DNA of 64,000 bases from the NCBI GenBank assembly GCA_903887415.1, contig CAISPO010000042.1:1-64000 (forward strand), given 5' to 3'. Below are positions 39,473-53,635 of this stretch, one piece after another. The position numbers and the translations under genes were made by a program. The DNA comes from an uncultured Bacteroidota bacterium. Lineage in GTDB: Bacteria > Bacteroidota > Bacteroidia > Chitinophagales > Chitinophagaceae. The notes beneath the pieces are model-generated. The model was not told the origin of the DNA, did no database searches, and worked only from the letters and a program-made list of their open reading frames with translations. The number at the start of each line of letters is the position of its first letter. Positions within the stretch are counted from its first letter, which is position 1.

Positions 39473-40387
39473 TTAGCTCCAAACCCTGCTTGCAAAACGG
39501 TCGCTCACTACAAGCTCTTTGCTGCCGGGAGTGTATTTGTAAAAACCTTCACCAGACTTCACGCCAAGGTAACCTGCCTGCACCATATTGGCAAGCAATG
39601 TAGCCGGTGCATACTTCTGGTTGCCAAAGCCCATATGCAATACGTGCATGATGGAGTAGCAGGTATCAAGGCCTATAAAGTCAGCGAGCTGCAACGGCCC
39701 CATCGGGTGCGCCATACCCAGCTTCATTATTGTATCTATCTCATTGATACCGGCAACGCCTTCCTGCAATGCAAGTACGGCTTCGTTGATCAATGGCATT
39801 AATATACGGTTAGAGATAAAGCCTGGATAGTCATTAACCACGCAAGGCACTTTACCTAACTGCACAGTAAGATCAATAATAGTCTGTGTTACTTCCCGGT
39901 CTGTAGCATAGCCATTGATGATCTCCACCAACTTCATTACCGGTACCGGGTTCATAAAGTGCATACCGATCACCTTGCCTGGCCTGTTAGTCACAGAAGC
40001 AATGCGCGTGAGCGATATAGAAGAGGTATTGGAAGCCAGTATGCAGCCTGCAGGACAGTGCTGGTCCAGTTGTTTGAAGATGTTGAGTTTCAGCTCTATA
40101 TTTTCAGTAGCTGCTTCTACTACCAGGTCGGCATCGGCTACGGCCGCAGCCATGTCAGTAAAAGTTTTTATGCGGCCCAGCGATTGTTGTTTCGCGTCTT
40201 CGGTAAGTGTACCCTTGGTCACCTGCCTGTCCATATTCTTGCCGATAACAGAAATAGCCTTGTCCAGCGCATCCTGCTTAATATCCATCATGTGTACATT
40301 AAATCCGCATTGCGCGAACACATGGCTGATACCATTTCCCATTGTACCAGAGCCGATAACAGTAACCGTGTTTAATTTTGATGACAT
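39473..40387 (-). CDS. hbd: 3-hydroxyacyl-CoA (3-hydroxybutyryl-CoA) dehydrogenase
   Basis: A 304-residue NAD-dependent dehydrogenase acting on (S)-3-hydroxybutyryl-CoA. The ATG at 40387 (MSSKLNTVTVIGSGTMGNGIS) gives the Rossmann fingerprint near the start; a longer frame to 40519 adds a non-family extension. Catalytic His is in GMHFMNPVPVMKLVEII and the C-terminal 3HCDH domain has YPGFISNRILMPLINEA and GLDTCYSIMHVL. It is the monofunctional clostridial/HBD type, not a fused multifunctional FadB. It lies beside PhaB on the same strand and could supply or drain the acetoacetyl-CoA pool of the PHA pathway. Confidence 0.92.
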   Translation of the reverse strand: MSSKLNTVTVIGSGTMGNGISHVFAQCGFNVHMMDIKQDALDKAISVIGKNMDRQVTKGTLTEDAKQQSLGRIKTFTDMAAAVADADLVVEAATENIELKLNIFKQLDQHCPAGCILASNTSSISLTRIASVTNRPGKVIGMHFMNPVPVMKLVEIINGYATDREVTQTIIDLTVQLGKVPCVVNDYPGFISNRILMPLINEAVLALQEGVAGINEIDTIMKLGMAHPMGPLQLADFIGLDTCYSIMHVLHMGFGNQKYAPATLLANMVQAGYLGVKSGEGFYKYTPGSKELVVSDRFASRVWS

Positions 40388-40495
40388 AATCCGTGTGTTT
40401 GTAATTTTTTGATCTGCTAAAATAAGCGTATCCGTGCTCATAACTTTATTATGGATTTTTTGAGGGCGCAAAGTAAGCATTGGGCAAACAATTAT

Positions 40496-40533
40496 CAAAA
40501 AAAGAAAAAACACCTGCAAAAAATTTGCAGGTG
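40496..40533 (-). terminator. phaB terminator
   Basis: CACCTGCAAA (40511-40520), loop AAA, TTTGCAGGTG (40524-40533). On the minus strand it is followed by TTTTTTCTTTTTTTG. Confidence 0.9.
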
Positions 40534-40606: not shown

Positions 40607-41353
40607 TTAATAGACGTGCTGCCCACCATTAATGCTCATGTTGGCTCCGGTAATAAAATTAGCGTGCTCTGATGCCAGGAACGATACCAGGTATGCCACT
40701 TCTTCCGTGCCCCCAAGCCTGCCCAACGGTATCTGCGCTATGATCTGGTTGCGTATCTCCTCTTTCACCGCCATTACCATATCCGTGCCTATGTAGCCGG
40801 GAGAAATAGTATTTACAGTAACGCCTTTGTTAGCTACTTCCATAGCCAGCGTCTTGGTGAATCCATGCATACCCGCCTTCGCGGCGGAATAGTTAGCCTG
40901 CCCAAACTGCCCGCGCTGCCCATTAACAGAAGATATATTAATTATACGGCCAAAACCTTTTTCTATCATATGGTTGATCACATGGCGGGAGCAGTTGAAT
41001 ACACTGTCGAGATTGGTAGAAATTACCGCACGCCAGTTTTCAAAACTCATCTTACGGAAACCACCATCTCGGGTTATCCCTGCATTGTTTACCAAAACAT
41101 CAACGTGGCCTATCTCAGCAGCTATTTTTTCAACCATTTTACCCACCGAGTCAAAATCAGCCACATCGGCATAATATATATTGATATCGTAACCCTCATT
41201 ATGCAGCTTTTCTTTCCATTTGACGGCTTTGTCCTCGCTGTGGTAGTTGGCCACTACAATATATCCATCATCGTATAATTTTTTACACATTGCAGTGCCA
41301 AGGCCGCCCGTAGCGCCGGTTACTAATACTATTCTCTTTTCTGTTGTGCTCAT
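40607..41353 (-). CDS. phaB: Acetoacetyl-CoA reductase PhaB-like
   Basis: A 248-residue short-chain dehydrogenase that reduces acetoacetyl-CoA to (R)-3-hydroxybutyryl-CoA, the PHA monomer. Rossmann motif VTGATGGLGTAMCKKL, NNAGITRDG, catalytic Ser in INISSVNGQRGQFGQ, then YSAAKAG with Tyr and Lys. SPGYIGTDMVMAVKEEI resembles PhaB more than FabG, and the pathway context agrees. The start at 41353 (MSTTEKRIVLVTG) is chosen; the longer frame to 41386 has no known homologous start. It is divergent from phaC by 232 bases and has its own terminator. A FabG role cannot be excluded by sequence alone. Confidence 0.87.
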   Translation of the reverse strand: MSTTEKRIVLVTGATGGLGTAMCKKLYDDGYIVVANYHSEDKAVKWKEKLHNEGYDINIYYADVADFDSVGKMVEKIAAEIGHVDVLVNNAGITRDGGFRKMSFENWRAVISTNLDSVFNCSRHVINHMIEKGFGRIINISSVNGQRGQFGQANYSAAKAGMHGFTKTLAMEVANKGVTVNTISPGYIGTDMVMAVKEEIRNQIIAQIPLGRLGGTEEVAYLVSFLASEHANFITGANMSINGGQHVY

Positions 41354-41585
41354 AAATAATGGTTTAGCCAATGAAAGATAGTCCAAAGGGTTTTAAAAAG
41401 AAACTATTCCCAGAAATATCATTTTAAAAATATATCGGGAGCGCGACGTTTTGCGCTACGCCGATCTTCAGCGCTGACCGCATAGCGTTTTATCCACTTG
41501 GTTATGCACAGTTGGCCGTTTTCCATCATAATTAACAACTTAAATTGTAAATAGGTATTACCTTCGCCGCAAAAAATATAGCCAA

Positions 41586-42638
41586 ATGAATTTTAATACA
41601 GCAGATATTGCCCAGGAAATGGTAACTACCTCTGAAAAGATACAGAGGGGATACGAAGTATTAAACGAAATAGGTGATGTAGAGGTAGGCATGACGCCAA
41701 AAGAACTGGTATGGTCTTGCGATAAAATAAAAATGTATCACTACACACGTGATACTAAAGCAAAATGCGCAACGCCTGTACTGGTGTCATTCGCAATGCT
41801 CAACAGGCACGATGTGCTTGACCTGCAGCCAGACCGCAGCCTGATGAAGAAATTGATCGAAGAAGGCCTGGACGTCTATATTATGGACTGGGGCTACCAC
41901 GATCGTTCTGATCGCTACCTCACCATGGAAGACTATATTGATGTCTATATGAATGGGGCTGTTGACTTCCTGCGCAAAAAACATAAGACACAGAAGATAC
42001 ACAAGATGGGCATCTGCCAGGGCGGCACTTTCTCCATGATCTATGCCTCTTTATACCCCGAGAAACTGAAATCGCTGACTACTTATGTAGCTCCTTACGA
42101 CTTCTCTACCACCAAGTGCATGCTCTACAAATGGACCAAGTACATTGATGTAGATGCGATGGTGGACACAATGGGCACCATACCCGGCGAAATGATAGAC
42201 AGCGCATTCGGCATGCTGAAACCAAGCATGAACGTTAGCAAGTATTTTGGCCTCGTTGATTCGCTTGATGACAAACCGAAAATGGAGAACTTCCTCCGCA
42301 TGGAAAAATGGAAGAGCGACCTGCCTGCTATCCCCGGAGAAATGTACCGCAAGTATATCAAGGACCTGTTCCGCGACAACAAGCTGATACATGGCGAATT
42401 CGAACTTGGCGGCCGAAAAGTTGACCTTAAGAAAATGACTGTTCCGTTCCTCAATGTGTATGCTACCGAAGACAACATTATACCCAACGAGAGCACCAAG
42501 AACATCATGGAACTTATTGGTTCTACTGACAAGAAAGTTTACGCTTTCCCAGGTGGCCACATCGGTGTGTTCGTAGGCGGCAAGTCGCAGAAAGAGCTTG
42601 CTCCTGCCGTTGCTGAGTGGGTGATAGATAGGTGCTAA
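41586..42638 (+). CDS. phaC: Class III polyhydroxyalkanoate synthase subunit PhaC
   Basis: A 350-residue catalytic subunit of class III PHA synthase (alpha/beta hydrolase fold), which polymerises 3-hydroxyacyl-CoA into PHA. The nucleophile Cys144 lies in the lipase-like box GICQGG (the class III proteins of Allochromatium have GVCQGG at Cys149). Asp296 in YATEDNIIP and His325 in FPGGHIGVFVGG complete the triad with the same spacing as the reference enzyme. The short length and absence of the 200-residue N-terminal domain separate it from class I/II. Class III enzymes need PhaE, and a PhaE-like gene lies 3.4 kb away. TACCTTCG at 41559-41566 is a possible -7 box 20 bases upstream. Confidence 0.95.
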   Translation: MNFNTADIAQEMVTTSEKIQRGYEVLNEIGDVEVGMTPKELVWSCDKIKMYHYTRDTKAKCATPVLVSFAMLNRHDVLDLQPDRSLMKKLIEEGLDVYIMDWGYHDRSDRYLTMEDYIDVYMNGAVDFLRKKHKTQKIHKMGICQGGTFSMIYASLYPEKLKSLTTYVAPYDFSTTKCMLYKWTKYIDVDAMVDTMGTIPGEMIDSAFGMLKPSMNVSKYFGLVDSLDDKPKMENFLRMEKWKSDLPAIPGEMYRKYIKDLFRDNKLIHGEFELGGRKVDLKKMTVPFLNVYATEDNIIPNESTKNIMELIGSTDKKVYAFPGGHIGVFVGGKSQKELAPAVAEWVIDRC

Positions 42639-42736: not shown

Positions 42737-43720
42737 TCAATGGTTCTCTTCGGCAGTAGTTGTATAAGAGTTTATCTTCCGGATGATCTCATCCAGCTTA
42801 TTCGCAGCAATTTGCAGGTTTTCCAATATTTCTATATTGTCAACGTGCCCCGGATTGTCAATATTGAATAGCTGGGCTATGCCCAGAATGCTGGCAACAG
42901 GGCCCCTTACTTCATGCGATTGAATCCATGCAATTTTCCTTAGTTGATCGTTTTGTTTTTTTATCATCTTCAGGTACTTGTACTGCCTGGTTATGTCCCT
43001 GGAAAAACAGCTCACACCGATAATATTTTTATCCTTATCGTGAATCAGGTTAAAACGTACTTCTTCATATGTTTTGCTGCCGTTATGCTCTTCGGTCCAG
43101 ACCATTTTATATACCTCGCCACTCAATGCCCGGTCATAAAAACCAGCCCATGTTTTAAGCAGGCCTTTATCAAAGTCATCGTATTGTACATCACATTTTC
43201 TTTTGCCGCAGATCCTGTAAATGCGCCGCCAGAATGCTTTGTTTGCCGAAATAATGCTATGTTGTTTGTCAACTGACCAGATTATGTCTGTTGTGTTATT
43301 AACTATCGCACGTAAATTCTGTTTTTCTATAAATATCCTGTCCAGAATTCTGTTTCGTTCAATGGCATAATGTATCGCCTTTTCCAGCATTTTTTGGTTA
43401 AACTCGCCCTTCACCAAATAGTCCTGTGCACCGTGTTTTATCGTATTGATAGCTATGGCTACTTCCGATGTTCCGGTAAGTACGATTATCGGGGTATCGG
43501 GGAATTTTTTTACCACCTGCTCAAAGGTTTCGGGATAAGACGAATCCGGCAGGGTGAGATCCGTTAATACAACCTCAATTCCAGAAATATCTACATCTGC
43601 CAGGTCTCGCAGATAGACGCATCTCACAATTCGTGCCCGGGGATAACCAATGTCTTCAAGCAGCATTGCAATTGACTGAAATGCAAAGTCATCATCTTCA
43701 ATAAACAGTAATTTCTTCAT
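42737..43720 (-). CDS. Receiver-PAS-HisKA-like protein without an ATPase domain
   Basis: 327 residues. Residues 1-125 form a receiver domain (LLFIEDDDFAFQS with the acidic pocket, phosphorylation site Asp54 in VVLTDLTLPDS, Lys in YLVKGEF). Residues about 130-245 form a PAS domain (LRAIVNNTTDIIWSVDKQHS, FSRDITRQYK, with PAC). Residues 258-325 hold a dimerisation and phosphoacceptor-like helix: LRKIAWIQSHEVRGPVASIL has His269. No HATPase_c domain follows, since the gene ends at residue 327 and a terminator sits behind it. It therefore cannot phosphorylate by itself and would need a partner kinase, or it may be a phosphotransfer or sensing scaffold. It sits inside the PHA locus. Confidence 0.88.
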   Translation of the reverse strand: MKKLLFIEDDDFAFQSIAMLLEDIGYPRARIVRCVYLRDLADVDISGIEVVLTDLTLPDSSYPETFEQVVKKFPDTPIIVLTGTSEVAIAINTIKHGAQDYLVKGEFNQKMLEKAIHYAIERNRILDRIFIEKQNLRAIVNNTTDIIWSVDKQHSIISANKAFWRRIYRICGKRKCDVQYDDFDKGLLKTWAGFYDRALSGEVYKMVWTEEHNGSKTYEEVRFNLIHDKDKNIIGVSCFSRDITRQYKYLKMIKKQNDQLRKIAWIQSHEVRGPVASILGIAQLFNIDNPGHVDNIEILENLQIAANKLDEIIRKINSYTTTAEENH

Positions 43721-45052: not shown

Positions 45053-45925
45053 ATGTCAATAAGTATCAGTTACCCTTACAAAACACATTTCATCGAGCTT
45101 CCCGGCAACTGCAAGGTTGCCTACATAGATGAAGGCTCCGGCGAGCGAACGCTTCTGTTCATTCATGGCCTCGCCAACTACATCCCGGTGTGGAAAAAGA
45201 ACATCGACGAGCTTAAGAAATACTATCGTTGCATCGCCATAGACCTACCAGGGAATGGCCTTTCTGACCAGCACGTGCATCCATTCGGGATGAAGTTTTT
45301 TGCCGAATGCATCTTCAACTTTATTAATGCGCTAAAGCTGAAAGACCTGCATATAGTGGGCCACTCGATGGGCGGGCAGATCGCCATGACCACAGTGCTC
45401 AATCATCCGGGTTGTGCCGAGTCACTCGTGCTTTGTGCGCCTGCCGGTTTCGAACAGTTTTCCGTAATGGAGAAAACGATGTACTACAGTTCGATACACC
45501 TTCTTGATTTTATCTCAACCGACGAGCACAGCCTGCGTACGGCAATACAAAATAGTTTTTACCGTAACCACGCACAGGGCGAAGGCATAGTAAAAGAACT
45601 TGTGAGCATCATGAAAACGTACAAGCTAAACTACTATCGCAAAATGGTGGAAGCCTGCATAAAAGGAATGATGGAAGAACCGGTATATAGCAACCTGAAC
45701 AAGATCCAATTACCCGCACTCGTCATTTTTGGCAGAAACGATGCACTTATACCAAACAAGCTCATACACCACACTACCACCGAAAAAATTGCGAAGGACG
45801 CAGTAAAGAAAATGCCAAACGCCCACCTGGAAATGATACCCGACTGCGGCCATTTTGTACAGTGGGAAAAAGCTAATGAGGTGAACAGGAATATTATTCT
45901 TTTTCTTGAAAACGAGCATCAGTAA
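45053..45925 (+). CDS. Alpha/beta hydrolase, possible PHA-locus esterase or depolymerase
   Basis: 290 residues with a classic hydrolase fold: oxyanion region LLFIHGLANYIPVWKKNI, nucleophile elbow HIVGHSMGGQIAM with Ser, acid in VIFGRNDALIP, and catalytic His in IPDCGHFVQWEKA. No signal peptide is present, so it acts in the cytoplasm. It resembles esterases and C-C hydrolases. Its place among PHA genes makes a granule-associated depolymerase or oligomer hydrolase possible, but no depolymerase-specific motif (such as a type-specific lipase box) is seen. TATTTTCG at 45039-45046 lies only 7 bases before the ATG, which could give a leaderless mRNA. The start MSISISYPYK is the only good one. Confidence 0.85.
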   Translation: MSISISYPYKTHFIELPGNCKVAYIDEGSGERTLLFIHGLANYIPVWKKNIDELKKYYRCIAIDLPGNGLSDQHVHPFGMKFFAECIFNFINALKLKDLHIVGHSMGGQIAMTTVLNHPGCAESLVLCAPAGFEQFSVMEKTMYYSSIHLLDFISTDEHSLRTAIQNSFYRNHAQGEGIVKELVSIMKTYKLNYYRKMVEACIKGMMEEPVYSNLNKIQLPALVIFGRNDALIPNKLIHHTTTEKIAKDAVKKMPNAHLEMIPDCGHFVQWEKANEVNRNIILFLENEHQ

Positions 45926-45947
45926 CAATTTTTAAAACACCACCACA

Positions 45948-45970
45948 CGTAGAGACGCAACGTATTGCGC
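45948..45970. repeat. GTAGAGACGCAA palindromic repeat
   Basis: GTAGAGACGCAACGTATTGC then GCC, a partly degraded copy of the GTAGAGACGCAA...TTGCGTCTCTAC family. Compare 31581-31609. Confidence 0.6.
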
Positions 45971-46032
45971 CTTTACTTTACCCACTGCCATCACATCTCA
46001 CTGCTACAATAAAATTACTGTTACGCCCAATA

Positions 46033-46063
46033 AAAAAAGGAACGCGATCTGCGTTCCTTTTTT
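46033..46063. terminator. Bidirectional terminator between the hydrolase and phaE
   Basis: AAAAAAGGAACGC (46033-46045), loop GATCT, then its complement (46051-46063). T tracts are built into both sides. Confidence 0.9.
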
Positions 46064-46084
46064 ATCAACCATTGTTATTAGTTA

Positions 46085-47659
46085 TTATTTTCTTCCACGC
46101 TTAGCAGGAGCAACAGCTTTCTTTACTGCTTTCTTAGCTGGAGATGGAGCTTTATATTCTTCCTCTTCTTCCTCTTCGCTCTCGTCTTCTGCTACTACAT
46201 CTTCTACGCTCTCAGCGGCAGCCATTTTAGCAGCCATTTCACGTACTTTCTTTTTCAGGTCATAGATGGTTTTGTAAACTTCGTCCATCTGGCTGCGTGT
46301 AGCCACCGGGATGTCCTTCATCATGCCTTCTACCTGCAGTTCGATGTCCTTGCGGAGCTTGTTCTGCATGCTGCTCACTTCGCCCATCAGTTTGCTGTAT
46401 TCTGTGCTTTCAAACAAAGAAACATAAACCTTGTCGCTGATGTTCATCCACTCCTGGTAAAGGGCAAGCATGCTCTTTACTTCTACGCCATCCTGTATTT
46501 TCTTGGCAGTGCTTTCAGCAAGCTTGTCCATAACCTTTGTACCCTGGCTATAGATCATGTACTGCAGTTCTGCATTCTTGATATTGTATTCAGCTATGCG
46601 CTTAGCGATATCGCTCCACTCCTTAATAGTTTTGCTCTGCGCATTTTCAGGCATCAGCTTAGTGAAAGGAGAAGCCGCTTCGCTCATCATGTTGGTGAAG
46701 TCGTTGTACGCCTTGTTCACCTGGCCAAACATATCTGTGCTGTTGCCCATCATGCCGCGCAGCTGATCGAAGCTCGTTTTGCCAAACTGGTTCATTTGTG
46801 CTGTACCGTTCTTCATCATCTCTGCCATTTTGGTCATGTAGTCACGGCCCTCCTGTGGCATAAAGCTGAAGAACTTATCGGTGAACTCCTTGTATGTTTC
46901 CGGGTTCATCCATTTCTTGTACTCGTCCATGTTGAACGTCTTCTCCTGCATGGATTTGAACATTGGCGCCCACAGCTCAGCAAACTTGGTAAAGCTCTCG
47001 CCAGACTTCATCATGTTGTTATAAGCATCATGAGCAGTTGGGCTCTGGAACATTTTGGTCCAGTCAGCCATGCTGCTCTGCAGTGTATTGTTGAACTGGC
47101 CGAACATAGAAGTCATCTGCTCCTGTGCCTTCTTCATGTTATCAGCGTTGAACGGATTCATCTGCTGTGCCTGGTTCATCCAGTTATTTGCCTGCATCTG
47201 GTTCATCCATGCAGTCATCGGGTTAGAAGTATTGTTGTTCATCCACGCAGTCATTGGATTAGACTCCGTATTGAAGCTCTTCTGCCACTGGCTGAAAGGA
47301 TTAGCAGTTGTGCCATTGCCCAGGTTCTTTGCAGCTTCCTGGCTCTTGTCCCACATTTGCTTGGCAAGGTCGGCCTGTACTTTCATCCAGTTTTCGAAAA
47401 ATTCGCTGGCTTTTTCAGTCGCCTCCTTTGCAGTTTCGGTAGCTTTTTCAGCAGCTTTAGGAGCTTCGCTTGTTACTTTGGTAAACAAGTTCTTCTGTGT
47501 TTCCAGCCAGTTCTTGTACCAGTCGCTTCCTTTCTCAATTGTTTCATTGAGCGTAGCGTTGCCATTCGCGAGTTTCTTAGTGTTCTCCACTACAGAATCG
47601 ATCACTTTTTTTTGTGTGTCAACGATGTTGTCCACCAAATTTTCTGCTTTGAAAGCCAT
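46085..47659 (-). CDS. phaE: PhaE/phasin-like PHA granule protein with a Lys-Ala-Pro tail
   Basis: 524 residues, no signal peptide. The N-terminal 110 residues are phasin-like amphipathic helices with two copies of an aromatic unit (WYKNWLETQKNLFTKV and FFENWMKVQADLAKQM). Residues 120-160 have the tandem unit NPMTAWMN (134-141 and 146-153) in an Asn/Met/Trp-rich linker. The C-terminal half fits the class III synthase subunit PhaE (PF09712-like): LYQEWMNISDKVYVSLFEST, ELQVEGMMKDIPVATRSQMD, EVYKTIYDLKKKVREM. It ends with an acidic run (EDESEEEEEEE) and a basic PAKKAVKKAVAPAKRGRK tail like the DNA-binding tail of PhaF. Known PhaE proteins are about 350 residues. It is inferred to be the PhaC partner plus granule coat. 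TACCTTTG (47784-47791) is a possible -7 box. Confidence 0.85.
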   Translation of the reverse strand: MAFKAENLVDNIVDTQKKVIDSVVENTKKLANGNATLNETIEKGSDWYKNWLETQKNLFTKVTSEAPKAAEKATETAKEATEKASEFFENWMKVQADLAKQMWDKSQEAAKNLGNGTTANPFSQWQKSFNTESNPMTAWMNNNTSNPMTAWMNQMQANNWMNQAQQMNPFNADNMKKAQEQMTSMFGQFNNTLQSSMADWTKMFQSPTAHDAYNNMMKSGESFTKFAELWAPMFKSMQEKTFNMDEYKKWMNPETYKEFTDKFFSFMPQEGRDYMTKMAEMMKNGTAQMNQFGKTSFDQLRGMMGNSTDMFGQVNKAYNDFTNMMSEAASPFTKLMPENAQSKTIKEWSDIAKRIAEYNIKNAELQYMIYSQGTKVMDKLAESTAKKIQDGVEVKSMLALYQEWMNISDKVYVSLFESTEYSKLMGEVSSMQNKLRKDIELQVEGMMKDIPVATRSQMDEVYKTIYDLKKKVREMAAKMAAAESVEDVVAEDESEEEEEEEYKAPSPAKKAVKKAVAPAKRGRK

Positions 47660-47783
47660 GTTAATTGTTATTATGTTTGAAAAATATGTGCTTGTTTGTT
47701 TGCAGAAAAGGAATTTTCACTATCTTGGTTCTTCAATTCTGCTTTAGTCTCCTGTAGTGCCTTTCTATCCCTTTTTCGCGCTG

Positions 47784-47791
47784 CAAAGGTA
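47784..47791 (-). promoter_or_regulatory. -7 promoter element of phaE
   Basis: TACCTTTG on the minus strand, 124 bases before the phaE ATG. Near -33 the sequence has no TTG. It may give a leader of about 118 bases. Confidence 0.45.
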
Positions 47792-47918
47792 GATAGTCTA
47801 AAGTTAAGTAAATGTAAAATTCCATATTTATCGGCTCCCTAACAATTATTTAACGGGGCCTATTGCTATGACCTATGGATGGCTGTATGTATCACGTTTT
47901 TTTCGAAAATCCCAGTTG

Positions 47919-47970
47919 CATAACTCATTCTACTTCACCCTCGCCTTCAGGGAAGGGATGGGGAGAGGTT
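47919..47970 (-). repeat. Dispersed repeat family A, copy 3
   Basis: CATAACTCATTCTACTTCAC then CCTCGCCTTCAGGGAAGGGA and TGGGGAGAGG. It is the inverse orientation of copies 1 and 2 and lies directly upstream of the phaJ -7 box. Confidence 0.75.
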
Positions 47971-47977
47971 TTTTCCT

Positions 47978-47985
47978 TACTTTCG
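47978..47985 (+). promoter_or_regulatory. -7 promoter-like element of phaJ
   Basis: TACTTTCG (TAnnTTYG form), 22 bases before the phaJ ATG. No TTG at normal spacing. Confidence 0.4.
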
Positions 47986-48007
47986 CCCACAAAAACACAC
48001 AAAAACT

Positions 48008-48421
48008 ATGTTACAGATCGGAGATGAATTCCGCCACAAGTACAGCTACACACAAGATGATGTGGACACCTATGCACGCGTAAGCGGCGATACTAACCCA
48101 TTGCATATTGATGCAGCGGCAGGCAAGGCCAGCATGTTCGGCCGCAATATTATTCATGGCTTCCTCGGCGCCAGTGTATTTACCAAAATATTCGGCGCAC
48201 TTTGGTATGCCGATGGCCATGTCTATATGAGCCAGAACATAAAGTGGCTTAAGCCCATGTTTGTGGACACACAATACGAAGCAGTAATAAAGGTAAAAGA
48301 GATCATTAAGGAAAAGAACCGCATCCTCTACGAATGTGCAGTTTACGACGTAGCCACCGGCGACCAAACCATTGCCGGCGAAGCACTGCTGCTCAATAAG
48401 AAGCAGTATGTGTGGGCATAA
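48008..48421 (+). CDS. phaJ: (R)-specific enoyl-CoA hydratase PhaJ-like (MaoC family)
   Basis: 137 residues, hot-dog fold. It hydrates 2-enoyl-CoA from beta-oxidation to (R)-3-hydroxyacyl-CoA, feeding PhaC. The hydratase 2 motif YARVSGDTNPLHIDAAAGKA gives Asp28 and His33, matching Asp31 and His36 of the Aeromonas enzyme, and FGRNIIHGFLGASVF matches the family. Length is normal (134-150). Its gene is divergent from phaE across 348 bases and converges with the lipoprotein gene at 48478, with a terminator between. Acyl-CoA thioester dehydratases of other roles share the fold, but the PHA context supports PhaJ. Confidence 0.87.
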   Translation: MLQIGDEFRHKYSYTQDDVDTYARVSGDTNPLHIDAAAGKASMFGRNIIHGFLGASVFTKIFGALWYADGHVYMSQNIKWLKPMFVDTQYEAVIKVKEIIKEKNRILYECAVYDVATGDQTIAGEALLLNKKQYVWA

Positions 48422-48435
48422 GAAATACAGTAAGT

Positions 48436-48475
48436 AATAAGCAAGCCAATCCAAATCAGGATCGGCTTGCTTATT
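48436..48475. terminator. Bidirectional terminator after phaJ
   Basis: AATAAGCAAGCC (48436-48447) pairs with GGCTTGCTTATT (48464-48475), with inner ATCC/GGAT pairs. It precedes the stop codons of two convergent genes. Confidence 0.85.
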
Positions 48476-48477
48476 TG

Positions 48478-49455
48478 TCACAATCCCAATAACCGCGATA
48501 TAATATCTCCTTCCGCGTCCGACGCCATCGCCATGGACACCTTTAGCCCGCTTGCTGTAACACCGGACTGTTGACAAAAATAGAAACTGCCATTTTTATT
48601 CGTAATAGCAACAATAGTATAATTTAGTCCGGGCGGAACTTGTTCAGCAAATCCCCCAGAATCATTATCGTACATATCAAGGTTTACTTTGTCGGCAGTC
48701 AGGGTAACATATACTTGTGTATTTCTGCGGTTATATGACGTATCTGGCATTACTGCTGTTATTTGCGTTAAAGAGCCATTATAACACGACCAATAGTCTG
48801 AATTCATAAAACCAAAACTACTGCACGAGTCAAACACATAATACCAGGGTTTAGGGGGTGGCACATAAGTATAGTTTGAATAGAACACGGAATCTCCCGC
48901 AGAATCTGTCCCGTACGAAACAGTACCAGGCAGCGTTGTATCACATACCGTCCAGTTCGCCGTTGAGTCGCTCGTATTGGTACTGCCATAAAACATTTCC
49001 ATTTTTTGTGAGGATGATCCATTTTGTGCAAATCCAAGCCCGTATTTGTTCGCATACACGGTCGCTCCGTTCATCGTGGCAGTTATATTCACTTGCCCGG
49101 TGCTTTGAATTAGTTTGCCATCCGGAGTTATCGTACTCGTTCTGTTGGCGATCATATCGCCCACGCTATACATTTCCACCAACTGCAGGTTTATCGTACC
49201 GCTGGTGATAATAGTACCACCCACCGTTTTGAATGAGTTTACATAAAAATGCAGCATAGTACCATTCGTACCATACACAATGGTATCGCGCCCGGCACTA
49301 ACACTCAGTTTTTGTGGAGTTGTGCGCAATCCTGCAAATAACTGGTTCAATGTTTGTGTCGGTCCTGCAGCATTGTACTTGGTCTTTTTACAGGATAGCA
49401 CTGTCACCACCGCTACTATACCTATAAGCCCCACTGAAAGAAATACTTTTTTCAT
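48478..49455 (-). CDS. Predicted lipoprotein, paralogue of 49531-50517
   Basis: 325 residues with a lipobox (MKKVFLSVGLIGIVAVVTVL then SC, Cys22). The rest is a beta-rich protein: DTIVYGTNGTMLHFYVNSFK, INLQLVEMYSVGDMIANRTS, VYANKYGLGFAQ, and a C-terminal region ending DIISRLLGL. No family is recognised. It is about half identical by eye to the next gene upstream (49531-50517), which shares TLNQLFAGLRTTPQ-like, MLHFY and ANKYG segments. The opening motif DTIVYGxNGTMLHFYxNSF is like bacterial proteins with a C-terminal carbohydrate-related fold, but this is only a resemblance. A short gap (75 bases) separates the paralogues, so they may be one transcript. Confidence 0.8.
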   Translation of the reverse strand: MKKVFLSVGLIGIVAVVTVLSCKKTKYNAAGPTQTLNQLFAGLRTTPQKLSVSAGRDTIVYGTNGTMLHFYVNSFKTVGGTIITSGTINLQLVEMYSVGDMIANRTSTITPDGKLIQSTGQVNITATMNGATVYANKYGLGFAQNGSSSQKMEMFYGSTNTSDSTANWTVCDTTLPGTVSYGTDSAGDSVFYSNYTYVPPPKPWYYVFDSCSSFGFMNSDYWSCYNGSLTQITAVMPDTSYNRRNTQVYVTLTADKVNLDMYDNDSGGFAEQVPPGLNYTIVAITNKNGSFYFCQQSGVTASGLKVSMAMASDAEGDIISRLLGL

Positions 49456-49530: not shown

Positions 49531-50517
49531 CTATAAACCTCCCAACCGGGTAAGAACATCTGCTTTCGTGTCCGCTCCCATAGCCGCATTAATGGTCATG
49601 CCGCTGGTTGTAGTTCCGGAGGTTTGATAGTAATACCAACTGCCATTGTTATTCGTGATCGCTACCAATTCGAAATTTACACCCACAGGTACTTGCGTGC
49701 CATGATAATTTAAACTAAATGAATTTGTGGTAGTATCGTATAACGATACCGGTATCGACCATTTCTCTGGCAGGTACACAAAAAATATTTGCGTGTTCCC
49801 GCTGTTAAAGTTTCCATTCGGCATAATAACAGTCATATCGGTCCATACTGAACTAAAGTTGCCCCTGTAAAAATAATCACAGTTCACCTGACCAAAACCG
49901 ACGCAGGAATCGAATATATAGTATGGAGAGTTAGTGGGGGGCTCGTATGCATGATAAGGGGTATCAGTCCCTACTTTCACCGTGCCAATGGTATTATTGC
50001 TCGCAGTCCATGTTGTTACAGAATCCGCAGTGTTAGTGCCACCATAAAATAATTGCATGGTATCAGTTGATGCGCTGGTTTGTACAAACCCTACGCCATA
50101 TTTATTGGCATAGACCGCTTGCCCGTTCATGGTACCGGTGAGGCTTATTTCGCCCCCACTGTTCAGCAGGCTATTGCCCGCTATGGTACTGGTACGGTTG
50201 CAGATATAGTCCACCGGTTTGTACATTTCTATCAGTTGCAGGTTCACTATGCCGCTTGTAAGGATATTGTGGTTTACGTCCATAAAAGAATTAGTATAAA
50301 AATGCAGCATCGTGCCATTAGCGCCATACACAACAGTATCCCTTCCCGCCTGCACACTCAGGCCCTGCGGTGTATATCTCAGCCCCGCAAACAACTGATT
50401 CAGCGATTGCGAACTATTAGTGACCGTAGTAGGATTACTCTGCACCTTCTTACAGGATATTACGGCTACCCCAGCCACACAGCACATCAGCAACACGGAA
50501 ATCACAACTTTTTTCAT
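49531..50517 (-). CDS. Predicted lipoprotein, paralogue of 48478-49455
   Basis: 328 residues with a lipobox (MKKVVISVLLMCCVAGVAVI then SC, Cys22). Shared blocks with the other copy are SLNQLFAGLRYTPQGLSV, DTVVYGANGTMLHFYTNSF, NLQLIEMYKPVDYICNRTST and VYANKYGVGFVQTSAS, plus a common end (ADVLTRLGGL). Differences cluster in the middle. The gene is upstream in the likely two-gene unit. Function unknown; both are outer-membrane or surface lipoproteins by signal. Confidence 0.8.
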   Translation of the reverse strand: MKKVVISVLLMCCVAGVAVISCKKVQSNPTTVTNSSQSLNQLFAGLRYTPQGLSVQAGRDTVVYGANGTMLHFYTNSFMDVNHNILTSGIVNLQLIEMYKPVDYICNRTSTIAGNSLLNSGGEISLTGTMNGQAVYANKYGVGFVQTSASTDTMQLFYGGTNTADSVTTWTASNNTIGTVKVGTDTPYHAYEPPTNSPYYIFDSCVGFGQVNCDYFYRGNFSSVWTDMTVIMPNGNFNSGNTQIFFVYLPEKWSIPVSLYDTTTNSFSLNYHGTQVPVGVNFELVAITNNNGSWYYYQTSGTTTSGMTINAAMGADTKADVLTRLGGL

Positions 50518-50706: not shown

Positions 50707-51252
50707 TTACGCTGCAACTGCTTCTTTTTCCTTTACAAACTCTGCATTGGCGCTTATCGTCACATCATGCCCCAGCATTATAGCGCCCGTCTCTGATACA
50801 CCACCGAAGCTCACACCAAAATCCATACGGTTCACCTTGCCGGTAACACCAAATCCCGAACGCGTATTGCCCCATGGATCGGGCGCGATGCCCCCGAATG
50901 TTACATCGAGTACCACATCTTTCTTTACGCCGCGCATATTCAGTACACCATGCATTTTATAATTTTCGTCGCTCACCTTTTCCATTTTAGTGCTGTCAAA
51001 TATAAGTTGCGGGTGATTGGCAGCGTCAAAAAAGTCGCCTGTTTTCAGGTGCCCGTCGCGCTGGTCGTTATTGGTTGACACGGAATCTATATCCGCTGTA
51101 AAATGCACCTTCGCAGTGGCGATATCATCACCATCTGTTTCTACGGTCGCGTCAAATTTTTTAAACTGTCCGCTTACATGCGATACCAGGTGCCTTACTT
51201 TGAAATGCACTTCAGAGTGCGTGGGGTCTAAAACCCATTTTGTGTTGCTCAT
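50707..51252 (-). CDS. YceI-family protein, cytoplasmic form
   Basis: 181 residues of the YceI lipocalin-like family, which binds polyisoprenoid or other amphipathic lipids. It lacks a signal peptide. The family strands are clear: TKWVLDPTHSEVHFKVRHLV, DATVETDG, LKTGDFFDAANHPQLIFDST, YKMHGVLNMRGVKKDVVLDV, and the glycine-rich FGVTGKVNRMDFGVSFGG. The last gene of the five-gene operon. The conserved HSxxxFxxRHL opening places it in the isoprenoid-quinone type. Its ligand is not known. Confidence 0.88.
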   Translation of the reverse strand: MSNTKWVLDPTHSEVHFKVRHLVSHVSGQFKKFDATVETDGDDIATAKVHFTADIDSVSTNNDQRDGHLKTGDFFDAANHPQLIFDSTKMEKVSDENYKMHGVLNMRGVKKDVVLDVTFGGIAPDPWGNTRSGFGVTGKVNRMDFGVSFGGVSETGAIMLGHDVTISANAEFVKEKEAVAA

Positions 51253-52524: not shown

Positions 52525-53061
52525 TTATTTTTTTACCACCGGGAGCACTACCTCGAGCTTAATATTTTCATCCACATCGCCACCCGGTTTACCTACATGA
52601 AAATCACTGCGGTTGATATTAAACTTAGCACTGAATGTACCCGTGCCGCCGCCATTCTGAAAACTGAATGGCAGCACCATTTCTTTTTTCACACCGTGTA
52701 TGGTCATGTCGCCCGTTACCTGGTAGCCTGCGCCTGACTTTACTATTTTCTTCGAGGTAAATTTTATTACCGGGTATTGCCCTGCGTCAAACCACTCCGC
52801 ACTCTTGGCGTGCGTATTCATCAGCCCATTCCCGGTATTTATTGACGCAACATCGATCGTCAGGTCAACACTTGAAGCCTCAGGATGCTGATCATCAAAT
52901 AGTATCGCGCCCTTCATGGTTTTGAATATGCCGCCTACTTCGCCGCCACCTGTAAACCTTACGGTGTACTTATCGGTCATTTGCCAATTGGTTGCCGGGG
53001 CAAAGGCAAGCACTGCGGCCAATGAAAGCAGTGCTGCCAGTGAGAAGATTGATTTTTTCAT
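52525..53061 (-). CDS. YceI-family protein, secreted
   Basis: 178 residues with signal peptide MKKSIFSLAALLSLAAVLAF then APA. The mature part is a YceI lipocalin-like domain: YTVRFTGGGEVGGIFKTMKG, ASSVDLTIDVASINTGNG, KFTSKKIVKSGAGYQVTGDM, IHGVKKEMVLPFSFQ and NINRSDFHVGKPGGDVDENI. It binds a lipid-like ligand by family analogy. Four bases separate it from the gene upstream (53066-53635). It is the middle copy of the three paralogues. Confidence 0.88.
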   Translation of the reverse strand: MKKSIFSLAALLSLAAVLAFAPATNWQMTDKYTVRFTGGGEVGGIFKTMKGAILFDDQHPEASSVDLTIDVASINTGNGLMNTHAKSAEWFDAGQYPVIKFTSKKIVKSGAGYQVTGDMTIHGVKKEMVLPFSFQNGGGTGTFSAKFNINRSDFHVGKPGGDVDENIKLEVVLPVVKK

Positions 53062-53065
53062 TTTT

Positions 53066-53635
53066 TTAGTCTTTGCTGAATTCAGTATTAGCTTTCAATT
53101 CCACTTTCTCCGCAAGCATAGGGCCAGGCATTGTTGCGCCTACACCATAGTCCATACGGTTCACGATTCCTGTTATCCTGAAGCCTGCCATTTCTTTTTT
53201 AGTCATAGGGTGGGTAGTAGTACCCACCAGTACCGCGTCAAGGGTCACAGGCTTTGTTACGCCATGCATGGTAAGGTTACCTTCTACCCTATAGTTGTTG
53301 CCTTTTTCTTTTTTGAATGATGTGCTTTTGAATGTCATTGTAGGGTTGTTGGCCACATCAAAGAAGTCAGCGCTTTTCAGGTGCTTATCTCTTGCTTCAA
53401 CATCTGTATTGATAGAGTTCATATCAGCGGAAAATTCTATTGTAGCATCGGAGAAGTCAGCTTTTGAAGAGGTGATCTTGCTGTCAAATGTCTTGAAATC
53501 GCCTTCTATTTCATTGATGCCCAGGTGGGTGATACCAAAACCTATCCTGGAATGTGCCTTGTCTATCGACCATGTCTGCGCAAATGCCGATGCTGATAAT
53601 AATATCCCTGCTGCGAAAATTGAGATTCTTTTCAT
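53066..53635 (-). CDS. YceI-family protein, secreted, first gene of operon
   Basis: 189 residues with signal peptide MKRISIFAAGILLSASAFA. The YceI core is WSIDKAHSRIGFGITHLGIN, EGDFKTFDSKI, FSDATIEFSADMNSINTDVE, LKSADFFDVANNPTMTFKST, NLTMHGVTKPVTLDAV, RITGIVNRMDYGVG. The gene leads the operon; a promoter and operator lie 80-105 bases upstream (see 53712-53741). It probably works in the periplasm. Confidence 0.9.
   Translation of the reverse strand: MKRISIFAAGILLSASAFAQTWSIDKAHSRIGFGITHLGINEIEGDFKTFDSKITSSKADFSDATIEFSADMNSINTDVEARDKHLKSADFFDVANNPTMTFKSTSFKKEKGNNYRVEGNLTMHGVTKPVTLDAVLVGTTTHPMTKKEMAGFRITGIVNRMDYGVGATMPGPMLAEKVELKANTEFSKD

Follow-up and report, generated by a model that had tools for sequence, protein, structure and literature searches.

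In class III PHA synthases, the phaE and phaC genes usually lie adjacent and in the same direction; PhaF of Pseudomonas is a phasin and carries no PhaE core. One source gives PhaE a mass of 20-40 kDa and counts class III PhaC in 13 genomes of Bacteroidetes (PMC8312272). In Ralstonia, the phasin-like protein PhaM activates the class I synthase PhaC1 and, through the lysines of its C-terminal PAKKA motifs, attaches granules to the nucleoid (PMC9049629, PMC11352279). In PhaF of Pseudomonas putida, a granule-binding amphipathic helix is followed by a zipper and then by a histone-like tail with eight AAKP-like repeats (PMC5658603). For Proteobacteria, reviews assign the coating of granules and their sharing between daughter cells to separate phasins together with PhaM or PhaF (PMC9049629, PMC5658603).

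Here we describe a PhaE from an uncultured member of the Chitinophagaceae, encoded in the window, the whole stretch of 64,000 nucleotides that was analysed. It shares with class III PhaE a full-length PF09712 core, a terminal zipper-like helix and the presence of a class III PhaC in the genome. It differs in its mass, outside the 20-40 kDa given in PMC8312272, in an N-terminal arm and linker that together span about 160 residues, in an acidic-basic tail, in a gene that forms no operon with phaC, and in a score below the cut-off of TIGR01834. Its unusual length is due to helices resembling a granule coat at the N-terminal end and to a positively charged tail at the C-terminal end.

The phaE gene and its neighbourhood

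The features of the locus are listed in Table 1. The phaE frame starts with the ATG at 47659 on the minus strand and its stop codon ends at 46085, confirming the 524-residue frame of the sequence-only reading, which had given no strand. On the opposite plus strand (46085-47659), one frame is open over all 525 codons, and in genome G101 a frame antisense to phaE extends over 550 codons without a stop. We attribute these open frames to codon composition; they may mislead ORF callers and are no evidence for a gene. A scan of 45800-48600 for promoters and terminators gave sites no commoner than in shuffled sequences.

Table 1. Features of the phaE locus, in order of position in the window
Feature	Position	Strand	Basis or content
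3-Hydroxybutyryl-CoA dehydrogenase	39473..40519	-	PF02737/PF00725; NF004474 406.1 bits, just below cut-off 408
Acetoacetyl-CoA reductase (phaB)	40607..41386	-	TIGR01829 364.6 bits, cut-off 302.1
Class III phaC, catalytic partner	41586..42638	+	TIGR01836 420.9 bits, cut-off 365.3
Alpha/beta hydrolase, possible PHA depolymerase	45053..45925	+	NF050089 102.4 bits, below cut-off 300
phaE gene	46085..47659	-	ORF, PF09712 match; 524 aa, about 60 kDa (60.1), pI 5.5
Acidic run (residues 491-501), then Lys/Ala/Pro tail	46088..46189	-	One PAKKA (507-511), nine K/R
PF09712 PhaE core (residues 160-475)	46235..47182	-	Ends in zipper-like helix (VATRSQMDEVYKTIYDLKKKVRE)
Asn/Met/Trp-rich low-complexity linker (about residues 119-168)	47156..47305	-	Tandem NPMTAWMN
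N-terminal arm, two overlapping Phasin_2-like stretches (about residues 4-85, 68-129)	47273..47650	-	Phasin_2 scans
MaoC-type hydratase, phaJ-like, divergent from phaE	48008..48421	+	PF01575 E 3.1e-17

The cluster is arranged in the order dehydrogenase, reductase, phaC, two regulators (two-component-type and AraC-type), alpha/beta hydrolase, phaE and the divergent hydratase. The predicted PhaC carries Cys144 within a GICQG box and is the sole TIGR01836 match in the genome. The phaE and phaC genes lie on opposite strands, 3.4 kb apart, and are therefore not members of one operon and have no common transcript; the window thus differs from the Rhizobium and Bosea plasmid records, in which phaE and phaC are adjacent and co-directional. 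A search for plasmid-borne PhaEs close to that of the window gave no match. Among 80 named loci with a related PhaE, phaC was detected within the stretch in 15, the stretches reaching at most 6 kb past the match and some contigs being shorter. The alpha/beta hydrolase was likewise found in 15 of the 80 stretches, together with phaC in 14 of them; it resembles the intracellular PHA depolymerase model NF050089 without reaching its cut-off, and may possibly be such an enzyme. The hydratase is located upstream of phaE on the opposite strand in 58/80 loci, at a distance of up to 500 bases in 50 and of 2.4-3.0 kb in 6.

Several other genes of the region were also noted. Between phaC and phaE, the minus-strand gene at 42737-43720 encodes a response regulator receiver joined to PAS and to a HisKA-like stretch that scores below the HisKA cut-off; an ATPase domain was not matched, and the gene recurs in only one of the 80 related loci. 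Beyond the hydratase, two neighbouring genes (48478-49455 and 49531-50517, minus strand) encode lipoprotein-like proteins of 325 and 328 aa that are visibly similar to each other and match no Pfam family at E <= 0.001. A YceI-like protein (PF04264) is encoded at 53066-53635 (minus strand), and the proteins of 50707-51252 and 52525-53061 (minus strand) resemble it by eye; a relative of the former lies near phaJ in 5 of the 80 loci.

The PhaE core

The PF09712 model matched the window protein over residues 160-475 (E 7.8e-24, 84.9 bits; gathering cut-off 25.7), in agreement with the PF09712-like C-terminal region claimed from the sequence alone; phaE is the sole PF09712 match in its genome at E <= 10. 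The match to the narrower NCBI model for PhaE, TIGR01834, stayed under the cut-off (66.7 vs 154.95 bits). Near the end of the core, the phasin models PF05597 and TIGR01837 both fell on residues 418-477 with scores below cut-off (PF05597: residues 418-476, 16.7 bits, cut-off 28.8).

The core is partly predicted as helical (block pLDDT 70-86). The fold model of the whole protein is poor (mean pLDDT 50.8) and gave no match in the PDB at E <= 0.001, and it was therefore used for helix positions alone. No convincing solved homologue was identified: the best hit (E 0.001) was a fusion between a receptor and a designed protein, and a profile search reached E 0.11 at best.

Occurrence of PhaE in the family and the phylum

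PF09712 exceeded its cut-off in 23 of the 147 sampled genomes of the family, and TIGR01836, scanned at E <= 1e-60, exceeded its cut-off in the identical 23. Among 395 sampled genomes of the phylum, 8 carried PF09712 and the identical 8 carried TIGR01836, both over cut-off. Class III PhaC is thus present in all genomes with a PhaE over cut-off (23/23 and 8/8), and among the 147 family and 395 phylum genomes no homologue over cut-off was found in a genome free of phaC. This co-occurrence and the PF09712 match support the identification as PhaE. One candidate (G077), with 23.4 bits for PF09712 (below cut-off) and no phaC, was rejected: its 771-codon frame encodes a 752-residue protein unlike PhaE.

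The 23 family PhaEs, including that of the window, are 486-529 residues in length, and the other 22 are 41-56% identical to the window protein. All carry the conserved arm and the basic tail, so that the order arm, PhaE core and basic tail holds for 23/23. The sequence-only reading had spoken of a fusion; this term is too strong for a layout common to all 23 family members found, which rules out a recent fusion. By its sequence, the protein is a true class III PhaE, and its enlarged form is the usual one in this lineage.

The named relatives include Taibaiella, Flavipsychrobacter and Edaphocola. The matches include a single further genome from the genus of the window (G097), whose PhaE is also found in a record titled Flavipsychrobacter sp. 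For 22 of the 23 family genomes, every 8-residue word of the PhaE was found in a named locus; the 23 genomes and the 80 named loci overlap and are therefore not summed. In three of the 80 named loci, the start of phaE lies beyond the contig end.

Two observations concern other members of the set. In another family of the phylum (G413, G421, G477), two of the three matching genomes carry two types of PhaE and two class III PhaCs. Records labelled Azovibrio restrictus (L114) and Phycisphaerales (L136) show phaE with an opposed phaJ, as in Chitinophagaceae, and all 8-residue words of the L136 PhaE are common to G140, a genome assigned to the window's family; both bins are probably mislabelled or mixed.

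The N-terminal arm and the linker

Residues 1-115 are conserved in 23/23 family PhaEs. In the family alignment, the conserved block opens directly after the phaE start in 23 relatives, the invariant M1 being partly a matter of construction since the starts of the relatives were set as the first ATG of the frame. Q16, E25, K28, N34, K43 and Q95 are invariant in 23/23, and W91 is nearly so. The arm is predicted to be helical with low confidence, and contains the two aromatic units noted earlier from the sequence, WYKNWLETQKNLF at residue 47 and FFENWMKVQADLAKQMW at residue 87, each within one of these low-confidence helices. The structure alignment included the window and 44 of the 80 named loci, chosen by eye with omission of truncated or near-identical ones.

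The Phasin_2 model (PF09361) gave 25.8 bits on the full-length window protein (cut-off 24.9). In the genome scan, the arm gave 24.5 bits and a second stretch 18.4 bits, both below cut-off, and the PhaE core was also matched weakly (14.2 bits); in such scans of the 23 PhaE/PhaC genomes, that of the window included, the cut-off was reached in none (0/23). On isolated residues 1-160 the score rose to 33.9 bits over two stretches. None of nine shuffled sequences matched, which speaks against a chance match. Among isolated N-termini of the window and 41 of the 80 named loci, chosen by eye as above, Phasin_2 was the commonest family (25/42, window included, E <= 0.1); generic coiled-coil families were also drawn, YkyA being next (15/42). 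At full length, Phasin_2 was detected in 2 of the 23 family PhaEs at E <= 0.01. When the five closest relatives and five others were scanned at full length, relatives of 95, 87 and 88% identity gave 22.0, 13.2 and 9.7 bits, all below cut-off, and no match was listed for those of 73 and 71% identity.

Because the Phasin_2 signal is unstable among relatives, we grade the phasin-like nature of the arm as plausible only. The earlier claim of a phasin-like N-terminus is plausible for the isolated arm, and the matches at full length are marginal. In our reading, the arm is related to phasins but has diverged, or else consists of convergent amphipathic helices that would serve the same use. Compared with the phasins of the Phasin_2 family, the two weak matches are the shared element, and the attachment of the arm to a synthase subunit and a full-length score barely at the cut-off are the differences. 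In the 23 PhaE/PhaC genomes, no match over cut-off was obtained for PF09361, PF05597 or TIGR01841, a set that phasins of other types would escape; weak phasin matches were seen outside phaE, such as that of PF05597 to a 111-residue frame in G125 (20.7 bits).

The arm is followed by the linker, in which NPMTAWMN occurs at residues 134-141 and 146-153, the tandem pointed out before. Linker length and repeat number differ among relatives, and related NP[MF]xxWx units number 1 to 4 per locus among the 12 loci listed. On the sequences compared, the exact tandem of NPMTAWMN is only a local feature.

The acidic run and the basic tail

Following the zipper-like helix, an acidic run from residue 491 (EDESEEEEEEE) leads into the Lys/Ala/Pro tail, both as reported from the sequence alone; no regular structure is predicted for this part, with low confidence. 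Tail composition was compared between 75 distinct tails from the 80 named loci and 494 further ORFs encoded there. K, R, A, T, P or S make up 11 or more of the last 15 residues in 63/75 PhaE tails vs 0/494 other ORFs, which rules out a composition due to chance. At least five K/R within the last 15 residues are present in 62/75 vs 29/494, and KK within the last 12 residues in 73/75 vs 56/494; a net charge of at least +3 separates the two sets less well (50/75 vs 80/494).

The literal PAKKA was detected in 6 of the 80 named relatives, the six heading the match list. All eight PhaEs inspected from two other families of the phylum have Lys/Arg-rich basic tails by eye, one with AKKPAAKKPAAKK; three of them, from one family, are 374-375 residues in length, and in the one that was scanned PF09712 starts at residue 9, leaving no room for an arm. 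Outside the phylum, two PhaEs were inspected, that of Bosea with a basic tail and that of Rhizobium without. A basic tail is therefore not peculiar to the window protein.

The tail had been called PhaF-like. It is indeed rich in Lys, Ala and Pro, but is nearer to the PAKKA tail of Ralstonia PhaM than to the eight AAKP-like repeats of PhaF. The order of helix, zipper and positively charged tail is shared with PhaF (PMC5658603), whereas the window protein has these parts around a PhaE core and a shorter tail with nine basic residues.

Proposed role of the PhaE protein

We propose that the phaE product serves as E subunit in a PHA synthase of class III (polyhydroxybutyrate-type), with the nearby phaC product as catalytic subunit. 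Its C-terminal core of 315 residues would bind and activate PhaC, a function that we consider nearly certain from the well-supported core sequence. The arm of about 115 residues, made of amphipathic aromatic helices, would cover the surface of the growing polymer in a phasin-like manner, so that the synthase subunit would double as the granule coat in a genome without a recognised separate phasin; for this second step our confidence is moderate. We put the probability that both steps hold at about 0.58. Points that count against the proposal are the TIGR01834 score below cut-off, the low full-length Phasin_2 scores of close relatives, the weak Phasin_2 match to the core, the generic coiled-coil matches of the isolated arm and the poor fold model. 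No report of PHB production by this lineage was found in the literature searched, and PHA production is here assumed from the genes.

A third step is more tentative, a weakly supported but testable guess. The disordered Lys/Ala/Pro tail after the zipper helix might make a loose electrostatic contact with the nucleoid, and might thereby keep nascent granules near the DNA, like the PAKKA tail of PhaM in Ralstonia. Against such a DNA tether stand the acidic nature of the whole protein (pI 5.5), the acidic run beside the tail and the low number of relatives with a literal PAKKA (6/80).

The proposed activator and coat has to be weighed against an ordinary PhaE with extra ends that are neutral. The arm would then aid oligomerisation of the synthase without a true phasin role, and the charged tail would keep the protein and the young granules soluble and apart without contact with DNA. 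The wide differences of linker and tail in length and sequence speak for this explanation, as do the presence of both acidic and basic residues in the tail of an acidic protein and the instability of the Phasin_2 match between close relatives. On the other hand, the arm is conserved, the tail composition is held in 63/75, and no other phasin exceeded the cut-offs of three models in the 23 genomes. We regard the ordinary PhaE as a serious possibility, though not the favoured one.

The protein could also be mainly a granule coat or segregation protein of the PhaM or phasin kind, with a PhaC that is active without it; the PF09712 match would then reflect a helical bundle common to PhaE, PhaR and phasins. 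PhaR and TIGR01837 indeed match 8 and 7 of the 23 family PhaEs (E <= 0.1) and PF05597 matches 5 (E <= 0.01), matches that fit a common helix at the protein end, with those of phasin models on the window protein below cut-off. The score below the TIGR01834 cut-off, the opposite strands of phaE and phaC and the detection of phaC in only 15/80 stretches point the same way. However, PF09712 matches 23/23 family PhaEs (E <= 0.01) and other Pfam families 5 at most, the strict pairing with class III phaC fits an obligate subunit, and the genome has no second PF09712 match. A coat protein of this kind is improbable, and the synthase subunit with a coat-like arm remains the preferred reading.

A similar design is that of PhaM from Ralstonia eutropha (Cupriavidus necator), a synthase activator with phasin-like character and a C-terminal PAKKA; PhaM is a protein of 32 kDa and serves the class I PhaC1, whereas the window protein is a class III PhaE of about 60 kDa. 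The comparison was made by description, and the likeness is one of design rather than shown homology. The idea of joining activation, granule attachment and DNA tethering is already known, since PhaM combines them. The earlier claim that such a combination had not been described thus has a precedent in a class I system; no PhaE with coat or DNA-tethering parts was found in the open-access literature searched, which is not proof of absence.

In its most far-reaching form, the proposal is that in this Chitinophagaceae lineage one protein replaces three, activating the synthase, coating the granule instead of phasins and tethering it to the nucleoid; its PAKKA-type tail would then have arisen separately from those of PhaM and PhaF. 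Taken as a whole, we consider this unlikely; if it holds, granule inheritance would be built into the synthase itself. A PhaE with coat-like helices and a basic tail, in genomes with no recognised phasin, would represent a one-protein solution, and also a compact tool to display proteins on bioplastic granules or to position them.
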